IMG/VR virus record: IMGVR_UViG_3300025120_000144
Span: 1 to 42,650 of that record
Length of the DNA stretch: 42,650 nucleotides
Strand: one strand, 5' to 3'
Origin: a virus
Under the pieces are notes generated by a model. The model was not told the origin of the DNA. It saw only the letters and a program-made list of their open reading frames with translations, and searched no databases. Positions 16,214-39,061 of this stretch are shown here, piece after piece (within the stretch, counting starts at the first letter, position 1; each line of letters begins with the position of its first letter). The translations under genes were made by a program, and so were the position numbers.

Positions 16214-17332
16214 ATGGCAAATATTTCGTTAACTAACAGTACGATTTATGCACAAAATATTAATAACTTTACTGGTGAATTGTTTAAAGTTGGTGGTCAA
16301 AGAACACCTTTACTTTCAGCAGTTGGGGGTCTGAATGGTGGTAAAACATTAAACTCTACATTTTGGCAAGTCCAAGTAGAAGATAATGCAACCATTTCTT
16401 CAGAACCTGACAAAGGAAAAGAGGGTGATGCACCTACAGAATACCTTGGAAGAGATAGAGCAGCATATACTTATGTAACTCAAATTTTCCATAAGGGTGT
16501 ACAAATGACTTACACAGCTTTAGCATCAACAGGCAACCAAAATCCTTTTGATTTATCCGCTAATATTGCTAACTCATCTGATGGAGATGGAACAACAACA
16601 GCAGCAGATAAACTAGGATTGTTTGGTGGCAACCCAGTAAATGATGAATTTGCATTGCAACTTGAAAAAGCAATGGAAAAAGTAGCAAGAGAAGTTGAGT
16701 GGTTTGCATTCAATGGTTCCTTTTCAGATGGTGCAAATGTCACCCCTGGTACAGGAATAAGAGAAATGTATGGTCTTGACCATTGGATTACCATTGGCAA
16801 GAACGCAAACAACGCAGCAGCAGTTAACCCCTTAGGTGGTAACTGTTTCTACAATGATGTAGATGGTGATGGAACAGGTGCATCACAAGTTATATCCTTT
16901 AAAACCATTTCAGGTGCTTTAAAGAGAATGTATGACAATCATGCACCAATGAATCAACCAGTGTTGTGTGTTTCACCACAACAATTACTAGACCTTAACA
17001 ATGAACTTGTTAAAGGTACAGTTGATATAGCAGGGGCAATCATTCCTAGAGATAGAAATGTTGCAGGGCTAGATATTGATACAATAGTGACCCCATTCGG
17101 TTCAATCGGAATGATGGTTATGGACCCTAATATCATACCTGCAGGTTCTGCTTTCATCTTAGACCTAGCACACATACAACCAGTATTTACCAATATCCCA
17201 GGATTTGGTACTGTGTTTGTTCGTGACTTAGACCAAGATGCAAACGCTAGAATTGGTAAAGCAATTTATATGGAGATGGGATTCGAGTTCGGACCTCCTT
17301 CATACCATTGTAAAATTCAATCAGTAGCATAA
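16214..17332 (+). CDS. Major capsid protein, SU10/DUF5309-like HK97 fold
   Basis: 372 residues, a usual length. The N-terminal pattern (FTGELFKVGGQRTPLLSAVG, then TFWQVQVEDNATISSEPDKGKEGDAP) resembles the SU10-type major head protein family, which has the HK97 fold and forms the shell. It is preceded by a strong ribosome site (TAGGAGAAGATAAAAATG) and by the probable scaffold. A rho-independent terminator follows at 17350, the common arrangement for a highly expressed capsid gene. Family assignment is by recognition of the pattern, not by search. Confidence 0.85.
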   Translation: MANISLTNSTIYAQNINNFTGELFKVGGQRTPLLSAVGGLNGGKTLNSTFWQVQVEDNATISSEPDKGKEGDAPTEYLGRDRAAYTYVTQIFHKGVQMTYTALASTGNQNPFDLSANIANSSDGDGTTTAADKLGLFGGNPVNDEFALQLEKAMEKVAREVEWFAFNGSFSDGANVTPGTGIREMYGLDHWITIGKNANNAAAVNPLGGNCFYNDVDGDGTGASQVISFKTISGALKRMYDNHAPMNQPVLCVSPQQLLDLNNELVKGTVDIAGAIIPRDRNVAGLDIDTIVTPFGSIGMMVMDPNIIPAGSAFILDLAHIQPVFTNIPGFGTVFVRDLDQDANARIGKAIYMEMGFEFGPPSYHCKIQSVA

Positions 17333-28514: not shown

Positions 28515-28898
28515 CTACCTTCCCCAACAATGTTTACTACTATTCCAGTGATGCCATCCATCATTGTAAACTAACCAACTTGCAACTGCAGTAGATATTT
28601 TTGCATTAGTTCTTTTACTTGTAATGTTTAATTTATTTTTTAACCAGGACCATGTGTCATCATTGAATTGCCATAGTCCTACATCCTTTGTACCATTTGT
28701 ATTCTTGCCAACTGCCGCTTCTATGCCAGAACTTTCGCAGTATATAACAAGTAATGCTTTCCTAGAATCATCCATAGTAAAGTATTTATGTACAAGTGGT
28801 AGCCACTCAACAACATGTTCTACTTTCTCATTTGTATCGTTACACCATCTGTACTCTTGTAACATATCAAAAGTTAATGGTCCAGTTATGTACATCAT
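28515..28898 (-). CDS. Lytic transglycosylase/lysozyme-like protein, probable endolysin (127 aa)
   Basis: The pattern YCESSG (E55), DVGLWQFND (72-80) and a closing WLVYNDGWHHWNSSKHCW is that of SLT/resuscitation-factor-type transglycosylases, with Glu55 as likely catalytic acid; these cut the glycan chain of peptidoglycan. No signal peptide, so export would depend on the holin. The closing motif is typical of actinobacterial members. The start is the first of two adjacent ATGs; no ribosome site is visible. Placement on the early strand, away from the holin, is unusual. Confidence 0.75.
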   Translation of the reverse strand: MMYITGPLTFDMLQEYRWCNDTNEKVEHVVEWLPLVHKYFTMDDSRKALLVIYCESSGIEAAVGKNTNGTKDVGLWQFNDDTWSWLKNKLNITSKRTNAKISTAVASWLVYNDGWHHWNSSKHCWGR

Positions 28899-28918
28899 GC
28901 ACGATAAAATAATAGATT

Positions 28919-29395
28919 CTATAATGGTAATTCCTTGTATGCTTTTTTGTTACCTTGAAAATCTAACTCTGGATAATGCTTCATAGGTATGCGTGGGTCT
29001 ATCCAATAATCTCTTAATTTAAGATGGTCAACCCATACTGGTTCAGCATCTGGTGTTTTAAAATACATGATGCCTACTTTAACTTCTTTAAATCTTGTAC
29101 CTTTAAACGCCATCTCTTGTATCTTAAAGTAATCTTCTTCTTTAAGTTTGTTTGTACCTTTAACTTCTATAAAAAAGATGTAACCTTTACGCACTAGGAT
29201 GTAGTCTGGTATTAGTAACACCTTAGTTGCAAACCAGAATAGGTCTAATTTATTTTCTTTAGGGTCAGTTCCTATTCTTAAATAGTCTTGATACTCTACA
29301 CAATCATTGTCTTTAAGATACTTCTGCATAGCAAGGTCTGCCATATCTTCACCAGAATTTCTATCCTTGTACGAATCTTTGTATGTACTACCCAT
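28919..29395 (-). CDS. PD-(D/E)XK nuclease (158 aa)
   Basis: Core motif LLIPDYI (P63, D64) followed at the right distance by FIEVKG (E77, K79), with E17 as a possible helix residue. These are the metal-binding residues of the PD-(D/E)XK fold, used by resolvases and recombination nucleases such as RecB-type and VRR-NUC. It lies beside the annealing protein, so a role in recombination or processing of replicating DNA is likely. Starts in the TAATG overlap with the previous gene. Confidence 0.7.
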   Translation of the reverse strand: MGSTYKDSYKDRNSGEDMADLAMQKYLKDNDCVEYQDYLRIGTDPKENKLDLFWFATKVLLIPDYILVRKGYIFFIEVKGTNKLKEEDYFKIQEMAFKGTRFKEVKVGIMYFKTPDAEPVWVDHLKLRDYWIDPRIPMKHYPELDFQGNKKAYKELPL

Positions 29396-29691
29396 TAGAA
29401 AGGTAACTCATCTGGTTCAACACCTTGTTCTGCTTTTTTTAACAGTGCATGACATTCTCTATATTCCCACGACCATGGCTTCTTTTCATCCGCTACTAAC
29501 TTGTATCTTCTGCCACAAAAAACATTTCCATCTTTATCGTAATAGGTTATGTTAAGTACTCCATTGCAACCAAATTGGCTTTTACATTTTGTGTCTGGTT
29601 CAGGTGGTATATCCCAGTTATAGCTAGGATATTTTTCTTTTACCCTAGCGATAATTTTATCAAGATTACTACCTGCTTGTTCTAAAGCCAT
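29395..29691 (-). CDS. Cysteine-containing small protein, possible zinc binding (98 aa)
   Basis: Cysteines at CKSQFGC, VFCG and YRECH are spaced like a zinc site. Starts 10 bases inside the end of the annealing protein gene and ends in a TAATG overlap with the nuclease gene. The three together look like a recombination module. No specific family is claimed. Confidence 0.65.
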   Translation of the reverse strand: MALEQAGSNLDKIIARVKEKYPSYNWDIPPEPDTKCKSQFGCNGVLNITYYDKDGNVFCGRRYKLVADEKKPWSWEYRECHALLKKAEQGVEPDELPF

Positions 29692-30548
29692 TCTGTTGGG
29701 CAGTCAGTGTCGCCCCAAGCAGTCCATCCACAACCATTGTTGCCTTGATACTTACTGCAACTCCAACTAGGTATCTTGCCATACTTGTCTGGGTCATCCT
29801 GCTTCTTTTGTCTATTGTCCTCTATATTCTCTGACTTACCACACTCAGGGCAGTTTTTTGTCAGGTCTTTAACTTCTCCAAATACATCTTCTATCAAATC
29901 TGTATCAGACTTTGTTGCTTCAACCTCTTTTTCAAATAGGTCTAAGAATTTACTCATGTCATCATTGGTCCAAGATTCAACATCTTTAGACAATCCAGAC
30001 TTCTTAAACGCATCACGCTTGTAATTTTGTGCTACAGTTTTGTCTAACTCAAAGGCATCTATAAGCATGTTCATCTGGTCAGCTTTGTTTGTAGATGGTT
30101 TTTCGGTAATAGACTCAGCAAATTCTTGCTTTGCTTTTTCTAAGACTTGTATGTCCTCTTTGTCTGTAGTTATCTTTGGTTTCTCTACTTTAACATCAGC
30201 AGGTTTGTTGCCTACCTTAGACATCTCTTGTCTGCTAGGTCTTGGTGCTTTGCTTCCTTGGTAATTCCAATTAGCTAACGCTCTACCTATTGCACTTGTT
30301 TCACAGTTCTCAACCCACGCATCAGTATTAGCAAATCCACCTTGTCCTTTAGTTTCTTGTGCAATACCAGTAGCCACTGGATGTTCATCTGTATTTTTAA
30401 TATAGACTTCTGCTTTGATAGTGACACAAGTACCATCAGCAGTTTCATGCACCACCTCTGTACTAATCCTACCTTCAGGATTATCTATCCAATATTGTTT
30501 AAGTCTTTCTTCTACTGTTTCGTAATTATCTAAATTAAATTTAGCCAT
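29682..30548 (-). CDS. ERF-like single-strand annealing/DNA-binding protein (288 aa)
   Basis: The N-terminal half carries ENCETSAIGRALAN (80-93), the signature-like motif of ERF-type phage recombination proteins. The last ~60 residues contain CPECG and a C..CGW pair that could form a zinc ribbon. ERF-type proteins anneal single strands, which fits phages lacking their own polymerase. Middle region (Lys/Glu-rich) is probably flexible. Coupled to the HTH gene by TAATG. Family assignment by motif only. Confidence 0.65.
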   Translation of the reverse strand: MAKFNLDNYETVEERLKQYWIDNPEGRISTEVVHETADGTCVTIKAEVYIKNTDEHPVATGIAQETKGQGGFANTDAWVENCETSAIGRALANWNYQGSKAPRPSRQEMSKVGNKPADVKVEKPKITTDKEDIQVLEKAKQEFAESITEKPSTNKADQMNMLIDAFELDKTVAQNYKRDAFKKSGLSKDVESWTNDDMSKFLDLFEKEVEATKSDTDLIEDVFGEVKDLTKNCPECGKSENIEDNRQKKQDDPDKYGKIPSWSCSKYQGNNGCGWTAWGDTDCPTEWL

Positions 30549-30760
30549 TATTCCTCCTCCACTGAATCAATAGACTTGTAAACAAAATCTCTTGTCTTGT
30601 CTAGATGACTTGCTATGTTTATAGCACTCCATCCTAATTGCTTCAGTTTTTTTATTATCTTATTTCTTTGTTGTATCATAGCTTTTTTGTCATCTTCATT
30701 ATTATCAATTAATTTTTGTATTGAAGTTAACTTAATTGCTAATTTAATTTCATTCTCCAT
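30548..30760 (-). CDS. Small helix-turn-helix protein (70 aa)
   Basis: Residues ~40-65 (KKLKQLGWSAINIASHLDKT then RDFVYKS) form an HTH pattern. A Lys/Asp-rich helical part comes first. May regulate early or late promoters. Start overlaps the upstream gene and the end overlaps the annealing protein (TAATG). Confidence 0.6.
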   Translation of the reverse strand: MENEIKLAIKLTSIQKLIDNNEDDKKAMIQQRNKIIKKLKQLGWSAINIASHLDKTRDFVYKSIDSVEEE

Positions 30761-30896
30761 TTCTCTCCCTATATAATCTGTTTTGTAATATTCTAAATTT
30801 AATATAAACTATGTCTGTTAACCAGTTGCTAATTGTCCAAGCACCTACTATATACACTGGCACTGACAAAAAAAACCAAAACTCCCAAGTTTCCAT
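30750..30896 (-). CDS. Small membrane protein (48 aa)
   Basis: A single membrane segment near the N-terminus (WFFLSVPVYIVGAWTISNWL) followed by a basic tail. Good site (GAGGAGTA) before the ATG, which lies in a TAATG overlap with the 22-aa gene. Its end overlaps the HTH gene by 11 bases. Confidence 0.55.
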   Translation of the reverse strand: METWEFWFFLSVPVYIVGAWTISNWLTDIVYIKFRILQNRLYRERNGE

Positions 30897-30964
30897 TACT
30901 CCTCTTCCTCGTGCATTTGCTTATGTATTTCTTGATGGGCTTCATAATTTCTAAATTTACTCAT
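30896..30964 (-). CDS. Tiny protein (22 aa)
   Basis: Encodes MSKFRNYEAHQEIHKQMHEE and two more Glu. Coupled to both neighbours by TAATG and preceded by AGGAGGAAGAG. A poly-Glu end is shared with several neighbours, where the GAGGAAGAG codons also form the ribosome site of the next gene. It may be a real peptide or mainly a coupling device. Confidence 0.45.
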   Translation of the reverse strand: MSKFRNYEAHQEIHKQMHEEEE

Positions 30965-31167
30965 TACTCTTCCTCCTGTATTTCTTTTGCAATTTTTAGT
31001 GTGTTTGCATTATGGTCTGCAACAAATTCATCTAACAATTCTGATATCCTTTTTGTGTTTAACTGTGTGAACACAATAGATTTCTCTACCTTTTGTCCAC
31101 CACATGCGTTAGCTAACTTAATGCACCATGCTTTAAGTAACTTTGGCTCATCAAATATATTAGCCAT
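30964..31167 (-). CDS. Small hypothetical protein (67 aa)
   Basis: ATG at 31167 is preferred over the TTG at 31170 because GAGGAGG lies five bases upstream. Helical, ends in EIQEEE. No family. Confidence 0.6.
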   Translation of the reverse strand: MANIFDEPKLLKAWCIKLANACGGQKVEKSIVFTQLNTKRISELLDEFVADHNANTLKIAKEIQEEE

Positions 31168-31197
31168 CAAATCCTCCTCTTTTATTCTTTTGTTTGT

Positions 31198-31362
31198 TTA
31201 CTTAATTAGTTCTTGTTTGTTCATATCAAATACAGTGATAATAAAATGGTTAGTTCCACCACTGTCTTTTAATTCTCTGACTTTGCATTTAACATCATCT
31301 TCCGAATCAAAGAACCATTCCATGTTCCCACCATAAATTGATACACTTTCTACTCTATACAT
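31198..31362 (-). CDS. Small hypothetical protein (54 aa)
   Basis: Encodes MYRVESVSIYGGNMEWFFDS and on, alternating strand and helix. Ribosome site AGAGGAAG before the ATG. A candidate extended -10 lies upstream at 31389-31397. Confidence 0.6.
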   Translation of the reverse strand: MYRVESVSIYGGNMEWFFDSEDDVKCKVRELKDSGGTNHFIITVFDMNKQELIK

Positions 31363-31388
31363 AACTTCCTCTGTATAATCTTATATCC

Positions 31389-31397
31389 AGTATAACA
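31389..31397 (-). promoter_or_regulatory. Candidate extended -10 promoter on - strand (TGTTATACT)
   Basis: Reading the - strand, TGTTATACT lies at the end of the SGNH-like gene, ~30 bases before the 54-aa start. It is the one - strand match to the motif used in + strand gaps. Confidence 0.4.
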
Positions 31398-31399
31398 CA

Positions 31400-32080
31400 T
31401 TATTCGTTTATGTGTTGTGCTATTTTCTCTGCAATTAATAATCCACCACTGTCATTAGGTTCTATGTCATTAAAATAATCTTCTGGCTTTAATGTGTTTG
31501 TTATGTCTATATAACTTGCATTAATACCTCTGTTATTTAATCTTTCAATAGTGTCTTGTAGCTTCTCGTTATGTGTAGCAATAAGTTCTGGCAATAGGTG
31601 TGCTACTGGCTTCCAATCTTTGTTCCATGATAAGTTGCCTTCGTACAATCCTAAAAACACCACCTCCGCTTTTGGATAACGATAGTTTAAAAGAACTGCT
31701 ATTGCTTCCACCTCTGTCATATATCCTGAATAAAATGGTCCTGACAATATAGATAACATATCATAACTTACTTCATTATAAATAGTTTGCTTTACGAACA
31801 TAGCTTTAAAATTGTCTGCCATCTCGTTGTCCAGTACTAATTTTTTTAAATCAAGAAGATTATTACCACCAACACTAATAACAAAGTGTGTTGTATCAGT
31901 AGAATAACCACCTTTAAGAGTAGAAGCCAACACTTCGTTTGTTGTCACTCCATCTACTGAATCATTAGATATAACATCATCATTTAATAATGTTCTAACA
32001 TGATAATCAACATTATAGTTTTCTACATACAATGTATTGTCTATAATGCTATCTCCTAATAAAACTATACTATTATTCAT
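31400..32080 (-). CDS. SGNH/GDSL hydrolase-like protein (226 aa), catalytic His replaced
   Basis: Block I GDSI (S11), block III GGNN (71-74), and a block V-like segment DIEPNDSGG (205-213) in the right order for the SGNH fold. The family active site normally uses Ser with Asp-x-x-His in block V, and here Glu207 stands in the His position. It may have altered or no esterase activity. Such enzymes act on acyl groups of polysaccharides, lipids or peptidoglycan. The gene is in the early block, coupled to its neighbours by short overlaps. Confidence 0.7.
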   Translation of the reverse strand: MNNSIVLLGDSIIDNTLYVENYNVDYHVRTLLNDDVISNDSVDGVTTNEVLASTLKGGYSTDTTHFVISVGGNNLLDLKKLVLDNEMADNFKAMFVKQTIYNEVSYDMLSILSGPFYSGYMTEVEAIAVLLNYRYPKAEVVFLGLYEGNLSWNKDWKPVAHLLPELIATHNEKLQDTIERLNNRGINASYIDITNTLKPEDYFNDIEPNDSGGLLIAEKIAQHINE

Positions 32081-32264
32081 TTACCTCCCTAAAAAATAAA
32101 TCAGCTAGTTCAGTTCTGTAGTGGCTTGTTTTAACATTAAGAAATTCATTAGTTATGCTTTGTGCTAACTCTTTACCATCCTCAGTGTCCATCCACCTAC
32201 CAACAACCGCTAATGCTTGGTTAAGCTCTTGCAGTTCTTCTATAATTTGTTCATCTTTTTTCAT
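32073..32264 (-). CDS. Small hypothetical protein (63 aa)
   Basis: Helical and acidic. Starts in a TAATG overlap and ends inside the start of the SGNH-like gene (8 bases). No family. Confidence 0.6.
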   Translation of the reverse strand: MKKDEQIIEELQELNQALAVVGRWMDTEDGKELAQSITNEFLNVKTSHYRTELADLFFREVNE

Positions 32265-32482
32265 TATTCTCCTTCTCCTCTGAACATCTCCTCAAAACAT
32301 TCTGGGTGTACGCCAGTCAACAGTTGTTCTCGCTCTGCTCTGCTATGTTCTGGAAATATGTCCTGTATTAATCTGCGTAGGTGTCTTGGTGTTTGGGTAA
32401 ACTCAATGTACTTTTCTGGGTCCACCATTACGCTACCTGTTTGCCTACAATGTATACATTCTTTAGTTGATACTGCGAACAT
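32264..32482 (-). CDS. Small zinc-finger-like protein (72 aa)
   Basis: CxxC (C9, C12) and a C-terminal HPEC (H59, C62), joined by a REQLLTGVHPECFEEMF segment. The pattern is like a small family seen in several actinophages and is compatible with one zinc ion. Role unknown. Confidence 0.6.
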   Translation of the reverse strand: MFAVSTKECIHCRQTGSVMVDPEKYIEFTQTPRHLRRLIQDIFPEHSRAEREQLLTGVHPECFEEMFRGEGE

Positions 32483-32649
32483 TATTCTTCCACCTCTAAC
32501 TTGTTAACAAATCCATTCAAATCATTAACAATATTGTATGCTTGACTACTGTAATTATCGTGGTCAAATCCACTATCAATATCATTATCAACTGCGAATG
32601 GATACTCTTTACCATTTATAGTAAGAGTTCCCTCTATCCATATAGCCAT
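32482..32649 (-). CDS. Small hypothetical protein (55 aa)
   Basis: Encodes MAIWIEGTLTINGKEYPFAV and on, beta then acidic helix. TAATG overlaps at both ends, ribosome site GGAAGAAT. Confidence 0.55.
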   Translation of the reverse strand: MAIWIEGTLTINGKEYPFAVDNDIDSGFDHDNYSSQAYNIVNDLNGFVNKLEVEE

Positions 32650-32780
32650 TATTCTTCCTTTCTTGGAACTGAATGTCCATTGTCTAAATCTAATAAATAT
32701 TGACTATAAAGTTTTGGAGTAAACTCTTTTTTTCTCCAACCCCACCTAGTTGTGTGTTGGTAGTAAAATAACTTAGCCAT
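32649..32780 (-). CDS. Small basic/aromatic protein (43 aa)
   Basis: Aromatic-rich, basic N-terminus (MAKLFYYQHTTRWGWRKKEF). TAATG overlaps at both ends and GAGGAAGAA before the ATG. No family. Confidence 0.55.
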   Translation of the reverse strand: MAKLFYYQHTTRWGWRKKEFTPKLYSQYLLDLDNGHSVPRKEE

Positions 32781-32923
32781 TATTCTTCCTCTCTTGATTC
32801 TGTATAAGTTTTAAAGGCATCTTTGACAATTAACAATTGTTTGTTGTCACCTTTACGCTCGTAGAGATTTTTTGCTATTAAAGAATCTATTGTGTTAATA
32901 ACATATTCTTTTCCTAGTGTCAT
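32780..32923 (-). CDS. Small hypothetical protein (47 aa)
   Basis: Mixed charge, ends in EEE. ATGA overlap with the upstream gene, TAATG with the downstream one. No family. Confidence 0.5.
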   Translation of the reverse strand: MTLGKEYVINTIDSLIAKNLYERKGDNKQLLIVKDAFKTYTESREEE

Positions 32924-33165
32924 TCTTCCTCCTCTTTTGTATCGCCATAGATACTGACATAACTGTCATCTCCATACTCAACGCCCTCGTAACTTACTTC
33001 TATGATATTGCTATCTCTTCGTATCACTTCAACACTATACTCATGCATGTGTGCATCTTCTGCTATCATATTGAGTTCATGTTCTGTTAGTTTTTTTTCG
33101 CTCGTAACAGTCCACTTTCTAATATCATGAGATGATTCTTCTAATGTGTATTCGTGTATAGCCAT
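32920..33165 (-). CDS. Small acidic protein (81 aa)
   Basis: Beta-strand rich (ARM: HEYTLEESSHDIRKWTVTS), ends in a run of Glu. Start overlaps the stop of the 89-aa gene. No family. Confidence 0.6.
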   Translation of the reverse strand: MAIHEYTLEESSHDIRKWTVTSEKKLTEHELNMIAEDAHMHEYSVEVIRRDSNIIEVSYEGVEYGDDSYVSIYGDTKEEEE

Positions 33166-33434
33166 TATATTACTTCCAATATTTCGCCATCTTCAGATAT
33201 GTAACCTGCTTCTATTATTGCTCTGGCAGTTCTGCCATAGTGTCCTTGTAATCTCCATGCTTGTCCAGATTTTATAAGGTTACTAAATAATTCCAATGTT
33301 TCATTGTCATTTAGTTCTCCAGATTCATACGCAATAATCATATCTACTACATTTGTTTTTTGCTTTGCTTTAGCTCTAGCTAGTCGCTCATCTCTATCTG
33401 CTATTGCCTGTGCTTGTTTTTTAGTTAGTTTCAT
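33165..33434 (-). CDS. DUF7417-like small protein (89 aa)
   Basis: Carries IIAYESGELNDNETLELF and GQAWRLQGHYGRTARAII, the motif pair of a small family (DUF7417) found in many phages and without assigned function. First gene of a transcript from a strong promoter (33464-33492), with ribosome site AGGAC before the ATG, so likely made early and in quantity. Confidence 0.65.
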   Translation of the reverse strand: MKLTKKQAQAIADRDERLARAKAKQKTNVVDMIIAYESGELNDNETLELFSNLIKSGQAWRLQGHYGRTARAIIEAGYISEDGEILEVI

Positions 33435-33463
33435 ATTGTCCTACTTTCTTGTTTGTATTAATT

Positions 33464-33492
33464 ACTATACACTAGCTTCTTTTAGTTGTCAA
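33464..33492 (-). promoter_or_regulatory. Early promoter P4 (TTGACA - 17 bp - TATAGT)
   Basis: On the - strand: TTGACA (33487-33492), 17-bp spacer, TATAGT (33464-33469), then an ACAAACAAG leader and the 89-aa start. It overlaps the end of the upstream gene. Confidence 0.8.
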
Positions 33493-33742
33493 ATAGTTCT
33501 CTATCTGAGTCATCAATTAATAGAAGCTCTTCAACATGACTTTTGACTGCTTCAAGGTCCACATCTTTAAACTTGTTTTGTAGAACCCAGTACAAATCAT
33601 TCATGTAGGTATGTTGGTCATCCATATAAGCCATTTTTAAATAGTAAGTCATAAGACTTTTGTTTTGCTTCTCAAACATTTCCTCCACTACTTTAGTGGC
33701 AACATCTTGTCGTGGTTCGTAATATCCTGTATCTCTACACAT
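33482..33742 (-). CDS. Small hypothetical protein (86 aa)
   Basis: Helical and acidic with two aromatic clusters. Overlaps P4 at its 3' end. TAATG coupling upstream. No family. Confidence 0.6.
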   Translation of the reverse strand: MCRDTGYYEPRQDVATKVVEEMFEKQNKSLMTYYLKMAYMDDQHTYMNDLYWVLQNKFKDVDLEAVKSHVEELLLIDDSDRELFDN

Positions 33743-33993
33743 TATTCTTCCTCCTGTTTGTATTCTTCTAGTACTTCATCAATTAATCTTGTTGCTTCAT
33801 CATATCCATTGTTCTCAAAGATAGTTAGACATTTGCCGAACAGTACCAACTCCATGTAACCATAGGTTGAAAAATCTATGTCGTACTCCTCAAAGTCATT
33901 GTGGGCTATGCTTAGAAAATCTACCCAACAACTATGTCCATTTAAAGACCAGTCATAGAGTTCTCTAAGATACATTGTTTCGTATCGGTTCAT
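33742..33993 (-). CDS. Small acidic protein (83 aa)
   Basis: Aromatic-rich N-terminal half, then a helix ending in EEYKQEEE. TAATG overlaps at both ends. No family. Confidence 0.6.
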   Translation of the reverse strand: MNRYETMYLRELYDWSLNGHSCWVDFLSIAHNDFEEYDIDFSTYGYMELVLFGKCLTIFENNGYDEATRLIDEVLEEYKQEEE

Positions 33994-34124
33994 TATTTTC
34001 CTTTCACTATTCTGTTTACCCTTGTATATAAGTCATCATATTTTTGTAATAGTTCATCTTCGGTATGTTCATCACATCTAAACACACCCTCTAATATTTC
34101 TATCATTGTTAGTTCAATTTCCAT
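33993..34124 (-). CDS. Small hypothetical protein (43 aa)
   Basis: Helical, acidic, TAATG overlap downstream and AAGGGGGAAA before the ATG. No family. Confidence 0.5.
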   Translation of the reverse strand: MEIELTMIEILEGVFRCDEHTEDELLQKYDDLYTRVNRIVKGK

Positions 34125-34132
34125 TTTCCCCC

Positions 34133-34267
34133 TTACTTTTGTATTGTTAGCTTGTAGTATTTACTATTCGCCCAACAAGAAAAACATAACCAAACTGTTT
34201 TCCTTGTTAAAGTATTTATTACTTCAACAGAATTTGTGTAATACTGTTTACATTTTTTACAATCCAT
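34133..34267 (-). CDS. Small zinc-finger-like protein (44 aa)
   Basis: CKKC near the N-terminus and CFSC near residue 28-31 (MDCKKCKQYY ... VWLCFSCW), a four-cysteine zinc site. First gene after promoter P3, ribosome site CAAGGAG. Could be a DNA- or RNA-binding regulator. Confidence 0.6.
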   Translation of the reverse strand: MDCKKCKQYYTNSVEVINTLTRKTVWLCFSCWANSKYYKLTIQK

Positions 34268-34291
34268 AGATTCTCCTTGTTTGTCTAAAGT

Positions 34292-34319
34292 ATTATACAC
34301 ACCTAACGATAGTTGTCAA
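34292..34319 (-). promoter_or_regulatory. Early promoter P3 (TTGACA - 16 bp - TATAAT)
   Basis: TTGACA (34314-34319), 16-bp spacer with TGTG before the -10, TATAAT (34292-34297), then ACAAACAAGGAG leader. Best -10 of the set. Confidence 0.82.
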
Positions 34320-34339
34320 GTGTGCATAATACATGGTTG

Positions 34340-34747
34340 TTACTTGACTGGAGTAACTACAGTCCTGCTATATCTGTCAGCTATATCATAGATTTCATCT
34401 CTAATATCTTGGTCTTGTGCTACCTGCTCGGACCCCAGTGTATGGGCTTCTGATATAGTGCCATCATATTCTCTGATTCTTACAAGACATTTGTGGATTC
34501 TTAACCACATTGCCTTAGCGAATTTCCAGTCCTTTTGGTCAAAGGTTATAAAGTTACCTTCGCCTAAAGATGTCGCAGTTGTCTTGATATGTGTCACTTC
34601 GCCATTGACATAACTATCGCCATTTATCTCTACCCTATCAAAGTCTTGACCTGATGAGTATTCATGGTTAGCTATTGCTTCTTCTCTAGTTTCCCCAAAT
34701 GATACATATTCGTGTACCAATGTTTCTTTAATTTTATATGCTTTCAT
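34340..34747 (-). CDS. Hypothetical protein (135 aa)
   Basis: ATG at 34747 is chosen because CTGGAGG lies five bases upstream; a GTG at 34777 would fall inside the -10 of promoter P2. The protein is beta/alpha mixed and has no recognised family. It stands alone between promoters P2 and P3. Confidence 0.65.
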   Translation of the reverse strand: MKAYKIKETLVHEYVSFGETREEAIANHEYSSGQDFDRVEINGDSYVNGEVTHIKTTATSLGEGNFITFDQKDWKFAKAMWLRIHKCLVRIREYDGTISEAHTLGSEQVAQDQDIRDEIYDIADRYSRTVVTPVK

Positions 34748-34775
34748 ATATTCCTCCAGTTTGTTTGTATGACCC

Positions 34776-34804
34776 ACTATACATTAGCAGGTCATTATTG
34801 TCAA
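34776..34804 (-). promoter_or_regulatory. Early promoter P2 (TTGACA - 17 bp - TATAGT)
   Basis: TTGACA (34799-34804), 17-bp spacer, TATAGT (34776-34781), then an ACAAACAA leader and the 135-aa gene. Confidence 0.82.
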
Positions 34805-34810
34805 GTACCT

Positions 34811-35197
34811 TTAAGCGTGTAACCAGTTGGTGTTAGTGCCACCATTGACACCACCATTGACATCTACGCTATCTATCTCAGCTCGTTTTAAGAATCCACC
34901 TAAGTCAAATAATCCTATTGCATTCATTGAATACAGGTCTTTAACTTGTGCCTGATGTTTTCTGGTTGTTATTGAATAGAAGTCATTGCATAAAATAACC
35001 TTAGTTTCATTTAAGAATGTTCCATTCTCTATGTCTACCACATAAGCGATAGGAGTATTGTACGATACAATTAAGTCGTATCGTGTTCCTGCTACTCTTC
35101 TAAGTGACCCAGTACTATTTAGGTTACGAACAGACAACACTTCGTTGTACTCATATCCATCAATAGATGCTACTGGTTCTTTGTATATTGTTTTCAT
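34811..35197 (-). CDS. Hypothetical protein, first early gene (128 aa)
   Basis: Beta-rich N-terminal part, then a GG-rich C-terminal end (NGGVNGGTNTNWLHA). Ribosome site AGAAGGAAC before the ATG. It is the first gene of the - strand block and so likely the first product after entry; host-takeover proteins often sit here, but no family is recognised. Confidence 0.7.
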   Translation of the reverse strand: MKTIYKEPVASIDGYEYNEVLSVRNLNSTGSLRRVAGTRYDLIVSYNTPIAYVVDIENGTFLNETKVILCNDFYSITTRKHQAQVKDLYSMNAIGLFDLGGFLKRAEIDSVDVNGGVNGGTNTNWLHA

Positions 35198-35225
35198 TGT
35201 TCCTTCTTTCTTGTTTGTCTAAGTA

Positions 35226-35253
35226 ACTATACACAGATATGAATCATTGTCAA
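35226..35253 (-). promoter_or_regulatory. Early promoter P1 (TTGACA - 16 bp - TATAGT)
   Basis: TTGACA (35248-35253), 16-bp spacer ending in TGTG, TATAGT (35226-35231), followed by ACAAACAAG and the ribosome site of the first early gene. Confidence 0.82.
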
Positions 35254-35381
35254 GTATCTAAAGAACCCTAATGATTACTGGGTTGCTTGTGTGGTTGTTC
35301 TTCTTCTATTGTTACTGAGATGCTTCTACTGTCTAGTTAGCACACCCACCCACAGAACAAAAACAAATGGTATACATAATG

Positions 35382-35422
35382 ATACATACACCACCTAGTA
35401 CCACAACATATTGTGTATGTAT
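35382..35422. repeat. 10-bp perfect inverted repeat, 21-base loop
   Basis: ATACATACAC (35382-35391) with GTGTATGTAT (35413-35422). The loop contains ACAACATAT, the core of the repeats that follow. Could form a cruciform or a single-strand hairpin. Confidence 0.6.
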
Positions 35423-35590
35423 GTAGGCAATAACGCAACATATAGTGGTACAACATGTAGTGTTTTTATTGGACATACAACATATAGGGGGGTTAAATGT
35501 GGGGTGCCTTGTGTGTGTGTGTACACCCTCTGTAGATATGCTGTTAAAGGGTACTCTATATAGAGGTACTACATATAGTGGTGTACCTAA
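35401..35590. repeat. Iteron-like repeats, consensus ACAACATATAGTGGT
   Basis: Approximate copies: ACAACATATTGTG (35403), CAACATATAGTGGTAC (35436), ACAACATGTAGTG (near 35450), ACAACATATAGGGG (35477), CTACATATAGTGGTGTAC (35569), plus the perfect palindrome CTCTATATAGAG (35554-35565). A more distant copy CTATATAGTAAC is near 35693. No gene is present. Could be an origin or a multi-site operator. Confidence 0.5.
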
Positions 35591-35877
35591 TTGCTAGTAA
35601 AAGGTAACTTTAAAAGTAATCGTTTTACTGTCTTTAAATGTAAAGATGAATAGTGCTAACCCTGTGTCACTCCCTCCCAAAAACCAGAATGAACTATATA
35701 GTAACATTTAAATATGTGAAGTAATGGGCTTTAACCCCAGTTAGCATGGTCCTGCTAGTCCACTTGATTTACTGTTATTGGTCAAGAATCCTTTTCTAAA
35801 AGCAGGAAGAATCCTTTGCTTGTTTCTCTACTATAGCACCTTGTTTTAAAAATGGTATTATTTAAGTGCAGGGTTTT
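35591..35877. other. Non-coding gap, no gene seen
   Basis: Only short unsupported ORFs lie here. An 11-bp direct repeat AAGAATCCTTT occurs at 35784-35794 and 35807-35817. There is also a hairpin-capable GGG CTTTAA CCC near 35727. No tRNA fold was convincing. Confidence 0.5.
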
Positions 35878-35886
35878 TGTTATAGT
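35878..35886 (+). promoter_or_regulatory. Candidate extended -10 promoter (TGTTATAGT)
   Basis: TGTTATAGT, the same form as in other + strand gaps. A start ~7 bases later (about 35893) would begin the first short RNA unit. Confidence 0.5.
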
Positions 35887-35892
35887 AGGAGT

Positions 35893-35940
35893 TCCTCCTT
35901 TCGCCTACACATAATCATATAGAAACCCTGCAGGTTTCTT
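35893..35940 (+). ncRNA. Candidate short RNA with 16S-tail (anti-SD) sequence, unit A
   Basis: From the expected start, the RNA would begin UUCCUCCUUUCGCC, holding CCUCCUUUC, which is identical to part of the 16S rRNA 3' tail. It would end in the terminator hairpin AGAAACC-CTGCA-GGTTTCT (35921-35939). It has no ORF with a ribosome site. Hypothesis only. Confidence 0.3.
35921..35940 (+). terminator. Terminator-like hairpin A
   Basis: Stem AGAAACC (35921-35927) with GGTTTCT (35933-35939), 5-base loop CTGCA, then TTT. An alternative pairing with TGCAGGGTTT (35867-35876) would prevent it from forming. Confidence 0.55.
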
Positions 35941-35966
35941 TGATTACTGTAACAGTGTGCTATACT
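35940..35966 (+). promoter_or_regulatory. Candidate promoter (TTGATT - 15 bp - TATACT, extended -10)
   Basis: TTGATT (35940-35945), 15-bp spacer, TATACT (35961-35966) with TGC before it. Same spacing and form as the promoter before the scaffold gene. Would start the second short RNA unit. Confidence 0.5.
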
Positions 35967-35972
35967 TCTTTT

Positions 35973-36065
35973 ACAAGAAAGGCAATATAAATCAATCCTT
36001 CTGGATTAATATATAGCCCTCCTTTCTTTGTTTGTATAGTACGACCCTCACGCAAGTGAGGGTTT
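35973..36065 (+). ncRNA. Candidate short RNA with 16S-tail (anti-SD) sequence, unit B
   Basis: Between the promoter at 35940 and the terminator at 36044 is a ~90-base segment with a small hairpin (AATCC-TTCT-GGATT near 35995) and CCTCCTTTCT (36019-36028), an exact copy of the ten-base 16S 3' tail. No ORF with a start and ribosome site was found on either strand. Hypothesis only. Confidence 0.3.
36044..36065 (+). terminator. Terminator hairpin B, GCAA-capped
   Basis: Stem ACCCTCAC (36044-36051) with GTGAGGGT (36056-36063), GNRA loop GCAA, then TT. Symmetric enough to act on both strands. Confidence 0.6.
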
Positions 36066-36110
36066 GCTATTGGTAATATAAAAATTTTTTTCTCCCTTCT
36101 TAAATTACAA

Positions 36111-36166
36111 CAATAGATACAATAGATATACCTGGAAAATCCAGGTGCAGCGTATGGGGATACGCT
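36111..36166. repeat. Tandem 9-bp repeat and two adjacent hairpins
   Basis: CAATAGATA occurs twice in tandem (36111-36128). Hairpins follow: ACCTGGA-AAA-TCCAGGT (36130-36146) and AGCGTAT-GGGG-ATACGCT (36149-36166). A TCTCCCTTCTT tract lies just upstream (36091-36101). Structured RNA or protein-binding sites are possible. Confidence 0.5.
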
Positions 36167-36234
36167 TCTATTTATAATAAGAAAGAAAAACTTTCATCTA
36201 AGAAAAAGTACTTGGTGTACAATGTAAGAGAGGA

Positions 36235-36330
36235 ATGTTTTTGTGGATTGTTATATTTTTCATAACAGTTTGGACAACTGTACGAACAGAACCTCGCTTC
36301 GGCGAGGTTTTGTGTTATAGTAATGAATAA
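36235..36330 (+). CDS. Possible 31-aa membrane peptide
   Basis: Starts at ATG 36235 directly after AGAGGA and encodes a hydrophobic N-terminus (MFLWIVIFFITVWTTV). Its 3' part includes the terminator hairpin at 36290. The ribosome site is too close for a normal start, but TACAAT at 36218-36223 could give a nearly leaderless message. Weakly supported. Confidence 0.3.
   Translation: MFLWIVIFFITVWTTVRTEPRFGEVLCYSNE
36290..36311 (+). terminator. Terminator hairpin with UUCG loop
   Basis: Stem AACCTCGC (36290-36297) with GCGAGGTT (36302-36309), TTCG loop, then TT. It would insulate the late operon from upstream transcription. Confidence 0.65.
36313..36321 (+). promoter_or_regulatory. Candidate late operon promoter (TGTTATAGT, extended -10)
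   Basis: Directly after the terminator hairpin and ~27 bases before the first late gene, in the expected place. Same TGNTATANT form as other + strand elements. Confidence 0.55.
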
Positions 36331-36348
36331 GCAACAACAGGAGAAATA

Positions 36349-37059: not shown

Positions 37060-37155
37060 TTGATTGACATTCCATGTCCAAAGTGTGGAGTGCTACTAAA
37101 ACCTAAAAATAAAATGAGGTGCAAAAACAAGGTGTGTGATGGTTACAGCAGATAA
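37060..37155 (+). CDS. Small zinc-ribbon-like protein (31 aa), TTG start
   Basis: TTG directly after the previous TAA, encoding CPKCG (6-10) and CKNKVC (21-26), four cysteines of a zinc ribbon. It overlaps the terminase start by 17 bases in another frame. The rare start and shared bases lower confidence. Confidence 0.45.
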   Translation: MIDIPCPKCGVLLKPKNKMRCKNKVCDGYSR

Positions 37156-39061
37156 AAAATTATGTTATGCAGGAGGATGCCATAGAGTATTGCCTAAAGG
37201 TAGGTCAAAATTTTGTAGCGATAGATGTTCTAACAGAATTAAAATGCAAAAGAAAAGAGCTAAGGATAAAGGCACCGAGTGGATACAGGAAGAAAAAAAA
37301 TTATCTATACCTAGTAAAAATGTTGAATCACGCAGAGGTCAAGTGTACAACGACATTGTCGAATCAGGTTTAGCTAAAGAAATTTTAAAAGAAAAAAACA
37401 CATTAACAGATGTAGCAAAAATATTAGGAACAACTGTTGGTGCTGTATCAATGGCGTACAACGCATACTTACAAGATTTAGAAAAACAAGCAGCACAAGA
37501 CAAATGGGAGTTACCACAAGTTGCAGAAAAATCCCTAGAAAATTTTAGTAATTTTCGAGATAGATATTTTCAAACAGAAACAGGAGAACCATACGAAACA
37601 CCAGATTTCCATATTAAATGGATTAACTCTATTTTAGATGCCATAAAGAATGGTGAACAACAGATGATATTGTCACCACCACGACATGGTAAAACAGATT
37701 TACTTATACATTTTGCAATATGGCTTATTTGCACCAAACCAAACATTCGTATTTTATGGGTTGGTGGTAACGAAGAGATTGCAAAAAACGCTATAGGTTC
37801 TGTACTTGACCAACTAGAAAGTAACGAATTGTTAGTAGAGGAGATATGTGGACCAGGACCTAAATTTAAACCTACAACAAGAACTGGTAAATCCTGGTCA
37901 CAGAGTGGTTTTACTGTAGGTACTAGAACAGTTACAGGAATTAAAAGTCCGACTATGGTTGGTATTGGTAGAGGTGGTAAAATACTTTCTCGTGACTGTG
38001 ACTTAATTATTGCAGATGACATTGAGGACCACACATCTACTATGCAACCTGCATCAAGAGAAAACACTAGAAGTTGGTGGACAACAACATTGTCAAGTCG
38101 TAAAGAAGAACACACAGCTATGGTCGTTATAGGTTCTAGGCAACATTATGATGACTTGTATTCTCATTTGCTAGATAACGAATCTTGGAAAACTATTGTA
38201 GAAGAAGCACACGATACAGCTTGTAACATGCCTGACTGGGATGAAGCTGAACATAAAGATTGTATGTTGTGGTCTGGTAAAAGAACTTACAAGTGGTTAA
38301 TGGACAGAAAACGAGCAGCAGAAACAACAGGTGGTAGAGCTATATACGAAATGGTCTATCTTAATGTTGCTATGCCAGATGGATTATCTTTGTTTGACAG
38401 AGTAGAGATAGAAGAGTGTCGTGACCAAAAGCGTGACATAGGACATATACCACAAGGTACAAGATTAATTGCAGGATTAGACCCTGCTTCTACAGGTTAT
38501 CAAGCAGCATTTTTATGGGCATACGAACCTGTAGAAAATAAACTGCACATGGTAGATATGAACAACTCTTTAGGTGGTGGTATTCCACAAGCACTAGACA
38601 TTATTAAACAATGGTGGTTAAAGTATAATTTGTCACATTGGGTTATAGAGGAAAATGGTTTCCAAAAAGCAATACGACAAGATATCAGTATTAGAGAGTT
38701 TGCATCTTCACATGGTATCTTTTTAGAAGGACACGAAACATTTAAGAACAAATTTGACCCATTGTATGGTGTTACAGCTATGCGACCAATGTTTCAGGAA
38801 AACAAAATTTCTTTGCCATATCTTAGCTTTGAAGCACAAGAGAAGGTAAACTTATATACAAGTCAGTTAGTGTATTTTAGTTCTGCTAAAAATAAAAGCA
38901 AGACAGTGGGTACAAAGACTGACATAGTTATGGCTAGTTGGTTTCCAATGAGAGCCATAAGAAGAATGCAAAAAGAACGCTTTGCAGAGTTAGGTTACGA
39001 TTATAGTCCTAGCTTTGAAGGGTACGAACCTAGTAGTATGGATTTAGATAATTGGAGTTAA
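37139..39061 (+). CDS. terL: Terminase large subunit with N-terminal zinc finger and HTH-like region (640 aa)
   Basis: Walker A SPPRHGKTD (about residue 179-187) and Walker B DLIIADDIED (about 288-297) of the packaging ATPase, then a C-terminal nuclease region starting at AGLDPAS. The first ~40 residues have CYAGGC and CSDRC, a zinc finger, followed at ~88-108 by an HTH-like TLTDVAKILGTTVGAVSMAY. No separate small terminase was found, so this front part may supply DNA recognition. ATG 37139 is chosen; a GTG at 37136 is next to it. The portal gene follows at once. Confidence 0.85.
   Translation: MVTADKKLCYAGGCHRVLPKGRSKFCSDRCSNRIKMQKKRAKDKGTEWIQEEKKLSIPSKNVESRRGQVYNDIVESGLAKEILKEKNTLTDVAKILGTTVGAVSMAYNAYLQDLEKQAAQDKWELPQVAEKSLENFSNFRDRYFQTETGEPYETPDFHIKWINSILDAIKNGEQQMILSPPRHGKTDLLIHFAIWLICTKPNIRILWVGGNEEIAKNAIGSVLDQLESNELLVEEICGPGPKFKPTTRTGKSWSQSGFTVGTRTVTGIKSPTMVGIGRGGKILSRDCDLIIADDIEDHTSTMQPASRENTRSWWTTTLSSRKEEHTAMVVIGSRQHYDDLYSHLLDNESWKTIVEEAHDTACNMPDWDEAEHKDCMLWSGKRTYKWLMDRKRAAETTGGRAIYEMVYLNVAMPDGLSLFDRVEIEECRDQKRDIGHIPQGTRLIAGLDPASTGYQAAFLWAYEPVENKLHMVDMNNSLGGGIPQALDIIKQWWLKYNLSHWVIEENGFQKAIRQDISIREFASSHGIFLEGHETFKNKFDPLYGVTAMRPMFQENKISLPYLSFEAQEKVNLYTSQLVYFSSAKNKSKTVGTKTDIVMASWFPMRAIRRMQKERFAELGYDYSPSFEGYEPSSMDLDNWS

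Follow-up and report, generated by a model that had tools for sequence, protein, structure and literature searches.

Our analysis suggests, with moderate confidence, that units A and B, two short plus-strand elements of a virus contig, act as base-pairing RNAs, masking early ribosome sites and thereby lowering the translation of early genes. The comparison of related sequences supports conserved structured elements, their promoters, and a complementarity between unit B and early leaders in the lineages that carry the corresponding form of unit B. That the units are transcribed, at what time, that they pair in the cell, and that translation is reduced is what we infer.

Genomic setting of units A and B

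The window, i.e., the whole stretch of DNA analyzed, is a 42,650-base virus contig (IMGVR_UViG_3300025120_000144). Its plus strand carries the major head protein (16214-17332) and the terminase large subunit (37136-39061), and its minus strand carries many small genes with nearly all functions unassigned (28515-35197). Units A and B sit in the divergent gap at 35198-36345, between the minus-strand and plus-strand gene blocks, which we refer to as early and late, respectively; these labels are drawn from layout and strand. Genes were called in this analysis with a Shine-Dalgarno (SD) criterion. The gap was compared across 80 relatives fetched by their terminase, plus others fetched by motif. 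No close cultured relative was found (terminase just 23-25% identical), and a search of 50,697 phage records gave no convincing match to unit A in cultured phages. The carriers of both units are a family of uncultured marine phages, with the units kept across highly divergent relatives.

The initial annotation placed a copy of the 16S rRNA 3' tail, CCTCCTTTC, between a promoter and a terminator in each of the two units. Both copies are indeed present on the plus strand: CCTCCTTTC lies at 35894-35902 in unit A, and CCTCCTTTCT lies at 36018-36027 in unit B, one base from the 36019-36028 given originally. The window contains 3 occurrences of CCTCCTTT against 1.15 expected, a number that is not significant by itself because 8 of 100 shuffles reach 3. 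The weight rests on the conservation of the copies in relatives and not on their number.

Unit A is a two-stem hairpin with a nearly fixed loop

On the basis of a covariance model, pair counts, and the folding energy (z -3.7), unit A is predicted to be a two-stem hairpin RNA (approximately 35866-35942, plus strand) whose apical loop holds the 16S-tail copy and whose 3' end is a U-rich tail. The covariance model, which combines sequence and structure, matches the window at 35860-35942 with 75.6 bits and detects unit A in 35 of the 80 relatives fetched by terminase, many of the remainder being truncated or of another type. In the outer stem, TGCAGGGTTT (35867-35876) pairs with AAACCCTGCA (35923-35932); its sequence varies widely among relatives, yet pairing holds in each. 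An ordinary alignment shows both sides changed in 7 of the 10 pairs, and the outer-stem flanks pair with their own partners at a mean of -21.4 kcal/mol, compared with -13.7 kcal/mol when flanks are swapped between sequences. The inner stem joins GUAGG (35885-35889) to CCUAC (35904-35908) and takes four forms in 76 sequences, all of them paired (GTAGG/CCTAC, GTAAG/CTTAC, CTAGG/CCTAG, and GTGGG/CCTAC).

The apical loop AGUUCCUCCUUUCG (35890-35903, plus strand) is nearly invariant, and we propose it as the pairing site for ribosome-binding sites. Its 16S-tail copy, AGUUUCCUCCUUUCG (AGTTTCCTCCTTTCG between the stems), is nearly fixed, and among the model matches of the terminase set one relative alone (L050) departs from it, with CUCCC. 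We judged loop invariance on the terminase set because part of the collection had been gathered with a motif that contains the loop. A hairpin with variable stems and a fixed loop is characteristic of RNAs that act via the loop.

The conserved stem is not the one proposed initially, which was a terminator hairpin at 35921-35939; the local palindrome there (35922-35938) is not conserved, and we rejected it as a terminator. Likewise, TGTTATAGT (35878-35886), originally taken as the promoter of unit A, comprises the linker and the first inner-stem bases. Being within the hairpin and kept in just 21 of 76 relatives, it was discarded as a promoter. What is kept instead is an upstream candidate extended -10 promoter, TGGTATTAT (35853-35861, plus strand), whose TGnTAnnAT form occurs in 74 of 76 distinct relatives and from which unit A would start near 35866-35868.

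Several features bear on the strand of unit A. The region 3' of the stem is 57% T on the plus strand versus 27% on the other strand, and three sequences have G-U pairs in the inner stem on the plus strand. One relative (L153) has a clear plus-strand terminator hairpin with a long T run after unit A. Folding energy barely separates the strands, with the plus strand favored in 48 of 76 sequences. The earlier idea of small RNAs that mimic the 16S tail is supported for unit A by its upstream -10, hairpin, U-rich tail, covarying stems, and near-invariant loop copy.

Unit A seems to be confined to viruses. Its 21-base core was found in at least 120 viral stretches, and the exact core had no occurrence among 84,980 bacterial and archaeal genomes, on which ground we rejected a bacterial element. 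The Rfam 15 covariance models gave no match over unit A at E values up to 1.

Unit B combines a covarying hairpin with a predicted pairing site for early leaders

Unit B (approximately 35973-36069, plus strand, with ends predicted) would be a small RNA made up of a 5' hairpin, an exposed linker, and a closing hairpin, as indicated by comparative folds and a folding z score of -5.0. On the plus strand, its promoter is followed by the predicted hairpin, by CCCTCCTTTCTTTGTTTGT, and by the closing hairpin with a GCAA loop. The promoter proposed at the outset was upheld in both of its boxes: TTGATT (35940-35945) and TGCTATACT (35958-35966; TATACT with a TG extension), with a 15-bp spacer between TTGATT and TATACT. 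Of 56 distinct relatives, 44 have the extended -10, and 38 of those 44 also have a TTG at a fitting distance. The second hairpin named at the outset (36044-36063) also proved sound, as a covarying closing hairpin at 36045-36062; in the alignment, 96.5% of cells are paired, 45 are changed on both sides, and none of 500 shuffles was as good. Its loops are of the GNRA type on the plus strand in 43 of 47 sequences.

The linker contains CCUCCUUUC and then an exposed UUUGUUUGU. More specifically, the predicted pairing site CCUCCUUUCUUUGUUUGU (36018-36035, plus strand) consists of a 16S-like part (36018-36027) and an anti-leader part (36027-36035). Among relatives we distinguish type 1 (TTTGTTTG, as in the window), type 1b (CTCCTGATTGTTTGTTCAG), and type 2 (CTGATTGA). 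In several relatives the CCTCC of unit B has become CTTCC, TTTCC, ACCTTC, or similar, while the hairpin and TTTGTTTG persist; the exact 16S copy is therefore less strictly kept in unit B than the 16S-mimic idea predicts. The better-kept part is UUUGUUUG, which is complementary to early leaders, so that unit B looks more like an antisense RNA to these leaders than a pure 16S mimic. Aligning the gap across relatives, a check set beforehand, thus gave a divided answer: the stems of unit A covary and its loop is kept, whereas the CCUCC of unit B is lost in some relatives in which the hairpin stays, an outcome named at the outset as one that would weigh against the 16S-mimic idea. For unit B, the conserved plus-strand promoter and the covarying closing hairpin speak for a small RNA, and the altered CCUCC speaks against strict mimicry.

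The opposite strand of unit B required separate attention. It reads a strong ribosome site, in many relatives with an ATG (ACAAACAAAGAAAGGAGGGCTATG), and in this respect the original statement that no start codon lies near the units on that strand does not apply to many relatives. No gene follows at unit B in any relative, the peptides being 1-38 residues long, unrelated, and shifted by indels, and we rejected unit B as a minus-strand gene start. Unit B could also, though this is very unlikely, derive from a minus-strand early leader and its ribosome site, either as a remnant or as a copy that still works, since ACAAACAAAGAAAGGAGGGCTATG resembles early leaders and the similarity to ACAAACAAG noted initially is correct. 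Apart from the broken frames, such a copy lacks a matching minus-strand promoter; early leaders carry a TATAAT-like box 7 bases upstream of ACAAACA, and unit B has GGGTCG at that place. The plus-strand promoter, the GNRA loops on the plus strand, and better folding on that strand also argue against it. The ATG, which is TTCAT on the plus strand, is accounted for by base pairing within the plus-strand RNA, where it pairs with an ATGAA of the 5' arm; the lineage of the window has AATAT and ATATA as its two arms.

No tRNA or tmRNA was found. With Rfam 15, no match over unit B reached the gathering score, and at 36040-36090 Chlorobi-1 alone appeared (20.3/50 bits).

Early leaders are predicted targets of unit B

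The minus-strand block contains four consensus promoters (TTGACA), at all of which ACAAACA lies 7 bases downstream of the TATAAT-like box; these messages are therefore predicted to start with ACAAACAA. Unit B is predicted to form duplexes of -17 to -24 kcal/mol with all four leaders. A whole-window complementarity scan gave the minus-strand gene start at 34747 as the best trans match of unit B (ATACAAACAAACTGGAGGAATATATG, -23.6 kcal/mol), behind a putative promoter and leader ACAAACAAACTGGAGGAATAT at 34748-34804. The other putative early promoters and leaders with ACAAACAA are at 35211-35253 (TTGACA-16-TATAGT; -19.9 kcal/mol), 34277-34319 (TTGACA-16-TATAAT; -17.2 kcal/mol), and 33449-33492 (-21.5 kcal/mol), all on the minus strand.

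In eight genomes, we kept the CCTCCTTTCT core and shuffled the flanks of unit B alone (60 shuffles). Against opposite-strand gene starts, only 0-6 of the 60 shuffles were as good as the real flanks, versus 6-41 of 60, mostly chance level, against same-strand starts. The distribution of the leaders follows the type of unit B. CAAACAA leaders were found at 76 of 391 early and 3 of 321 late starts in phages with a type 1 unit B (approximately 4 of the 76 are unit B itself on the minus strand and were removed in the later binding comparison), and at 17 of 78 early and 0 of 58 late starts in those with type 1b. The corresponding figures for type 2 were 1 of 92 and 2 of 149. In addition, type 1 and 1b unit B sequences showed their strongest predicted binding to early starts from phages of these two types, and type 2 unit B showed no preference for early starts. 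Simple tests gave strong values (6e-18 and 8e-7) but treat related genes as independent. On a finer scale, we compared within lineages the two bases after UUGUUUGU with the two before ACAAACAA; the match was partial and confounded by relatedness, and we set this co-match aside.

Unit A has a loop complementary to AAAGGAGGAA. In type 1 phages, the loop complement GGAGGAA stands at 60 of 391 early versus 3 of 321 late starts. In type 2 phages, the majority of which are without unit A, it stands at 2 of 92 early starts. This distribution fits early messages as targets of unit A, and it would also fit strong host ribosome sites. Any SD-using gene is expected to have a ribosome site that can pair with a 16S copy, so the targets of unit A are not specific. 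One could suppose that the 16S copies are directed mainly at the host, masking its strong ribosome sites and aiding a takeover of translation, with the complementarity to early leaders following secondarily from shared ribosome sites. In unit A, the loop copies the 16S tail in a generic way, and the weaker ribosome sites of the plus-strand block would be spared (GGAGG in 9% of late versus 33% of early starts). We nonetheless hold this to be quite unlikely: ACAAACAA is outside the ribosome site, yet it is matched by unit B, and the two go together across lineages.

Other conserved elements in the gap

The gap contains further conserved features. A third conserved noncoding element of approximately 180 nt lies on the minus strand (approximately 35655-35838) behind an extended -10, TGCTATAGTA. 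Compared with column-shuffled controls, its alignment folds at -53 versus -17 +/- 4 on the minus strand and at -36 versus -15 on the plus strand. Both sides are changed in 14 of 29 predicted pairs, and many of the G-U changes fit the minus strand only. Folding of the window sequence by itself showed no excess on the minus strand at 35640-35829 (z +0.6), though the alignment covaries. At least 119 viral stretches contain the core of this element, GTGGAYTAGCAGGACCATG; no bacterial genome did, and Rfam gave no match.

A conserved third plus-strand block (36253-36329; folding z -5.1) has a small hairpin, CAGTTTGGACAACTG, and then a strong hairpin, AACCTCGCTTCGGCGAGGTT, after which comes TTTTG; it is probably a terminator or another small RNA. 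Weak, sub-threshold Rfam matches at 36200-36313 to istR (30.5/45 bits) and RsmY (22.9/57 bits) overlap the third plus-strand hairpin. In seven relatives (L012, L036, L049, L056, L095, L115, and L135), TGnTAnnAT follows the closing hairpin of unit B, and an ATG comes 6-8 bases further on with no ribosome site, an arrangement that resembles a leaderless gene. At 36080-36091, an A run is joined to a T run (AAAAATTTTTTT, often then ACAC), and many relatives have this feature at the corresponding place after unit B.

Arrangement of the units and their proposed role

The plus-strand block begins with a tandem series made up of unit A, unit B, and a third hairpin (36290-36309), with a promoter-like site after each, and in most relatives the terminase lies downstream in the same direction. 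Such an arrangement would suit leader or terminator elements of the late operon that act in cis: polymerase would start at each promoter, halt at the hairpins, and pass only if modified, the 16S copies being of minor importance. We regard this as unlikely. In one relative (L059:360-442, minus), unit A and its flanking promoter sequences are inverted relative to the terminase, while the unit B-like hairpin keeps its direction; alignment of unit A with late genes is therefore not required. Moreover, a terminator role leaves unexplained both the near-fixed loop of unit A amid changing stems and the match of unit B to early leaders.

The gap is the single divergent intergenic region and is rich in palindromes, and its A-tract/T-tract recurs in relatives; this could also suggest that the palindromes act as DNA (e.g., at an origin, in packaging, or in protein binding), the RNA-like pattern being incidental. 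This is extremely unlikely in our view, given that RNA fits the stems that change yet pair, the inner-stem G-U pairs on the plus strand, the occurrence of GNRA loops on one strand, and the fixed places of the promoters.

In the reading that we prefer, namely, base-pairing RNAs that mask early ribosome sites, units A and B would be transcribed from the plus strand just ahead of the structural gene block. Unit A would form a stable hairpin whose fixed loop presents a copy of the 16S tail to strong ribosome sites of the GGAGGAA type, and unit B would pair with the start that the minus-strand messages have in common (ACAAACAA, then the ribosome site), covering the place where ribosomes load. Together, they may reduce the translation of early genes, and perhaps also of host genes with strong ribosome sites. 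The likeliest use would be to shut off early messages while the late block comes on.

The usual explanations for early-to-late switches in phages are new sigma factors, new RNA polymerases, or antiterminators. More tentatively, the two sRNAs with 16S-tail copies might constitute a post-transcriptional early-to-late switch, one of them general and the other acting on the shared early 5' end and changing together with the leader across lineages. If this is true, uncultured marine phages of a widespread group shut off their early messages through pairing with the common 5' leader and through a copy of the ribosome's rRNA tail, a simple way of reaching many messages together.

Comparison with known RNAs

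A 2025 review of phage-derived small RNAs makes no mention of an anti-SD RNA, the nearest case being c4 (PMC12197685), and our literature search, with most subscription papers beyond its reach, found no phage anti-SD sRNAs. In alpha-proteobacteria, the alphar14/cuckoo sRNAs, such as NfeR1, display the anti-SD motif CCUCCUCCC unpaired in three hairpins with variable stems and have been proposed to pair with the ribosome sites of many messages (PMC10746234). Unit A likewise has a fixed unpaired anti-SD motif and varying stems. It is, however, one two-stem hairpin with CCUCCUUUC in place of three hairpins with CCUCCUCCC each, and it was found in viral contigs only, whereas the alphar14/cuckoo sRNAs belong to bacterial genomes; unit A is therefore not a member of that family.

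Exposed C-rich stretches in or beside hairpin loops are also used by staphylococcal C-rich sRNAs, such as IsrR, which pair with SD sequences and lower translation (PMC9410917). Units A and B share with them one feature of SD-masking sRNAs, an exposed C-rich stretch complementary to the ribosome sites of their predicted targets. The IsrR-type RNAs differ in being chromosomal and longer, with several C-rich regions and an unrelated sequence, and their function has been demonstrated experimentally, that of units A and B being predicted.

Short structured RNAs can also head a phage transcription block and act in cis on RNA polymerase, as do the late-leader 6S RNA of lambda and the put RNA of HK022. 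Units A and B are similarly short, structured, and located at the head of a transcription block, but the lambda and HK022 RNAs are not known to have a 16S-tail loop, and in L059 unit A is inverted relative to the late block.

Among phage RNAs that act by base pairing, lambda OOP and P22 sar RNA block the ribosome site of a message of their own phage. The c4 RNA of P1 and P7 is an antisense RNA that blocks a ribosome site in the same manner (PMC12197685). Unit B is predicted to resemble all three in being a phage-encoded RNA that pairs with the ribosome site of its own phage's message. Each of those RNAs addresses one message, whereas unit B matches a 5' leader that several early messages share and carries a 16S-tail copy as well.
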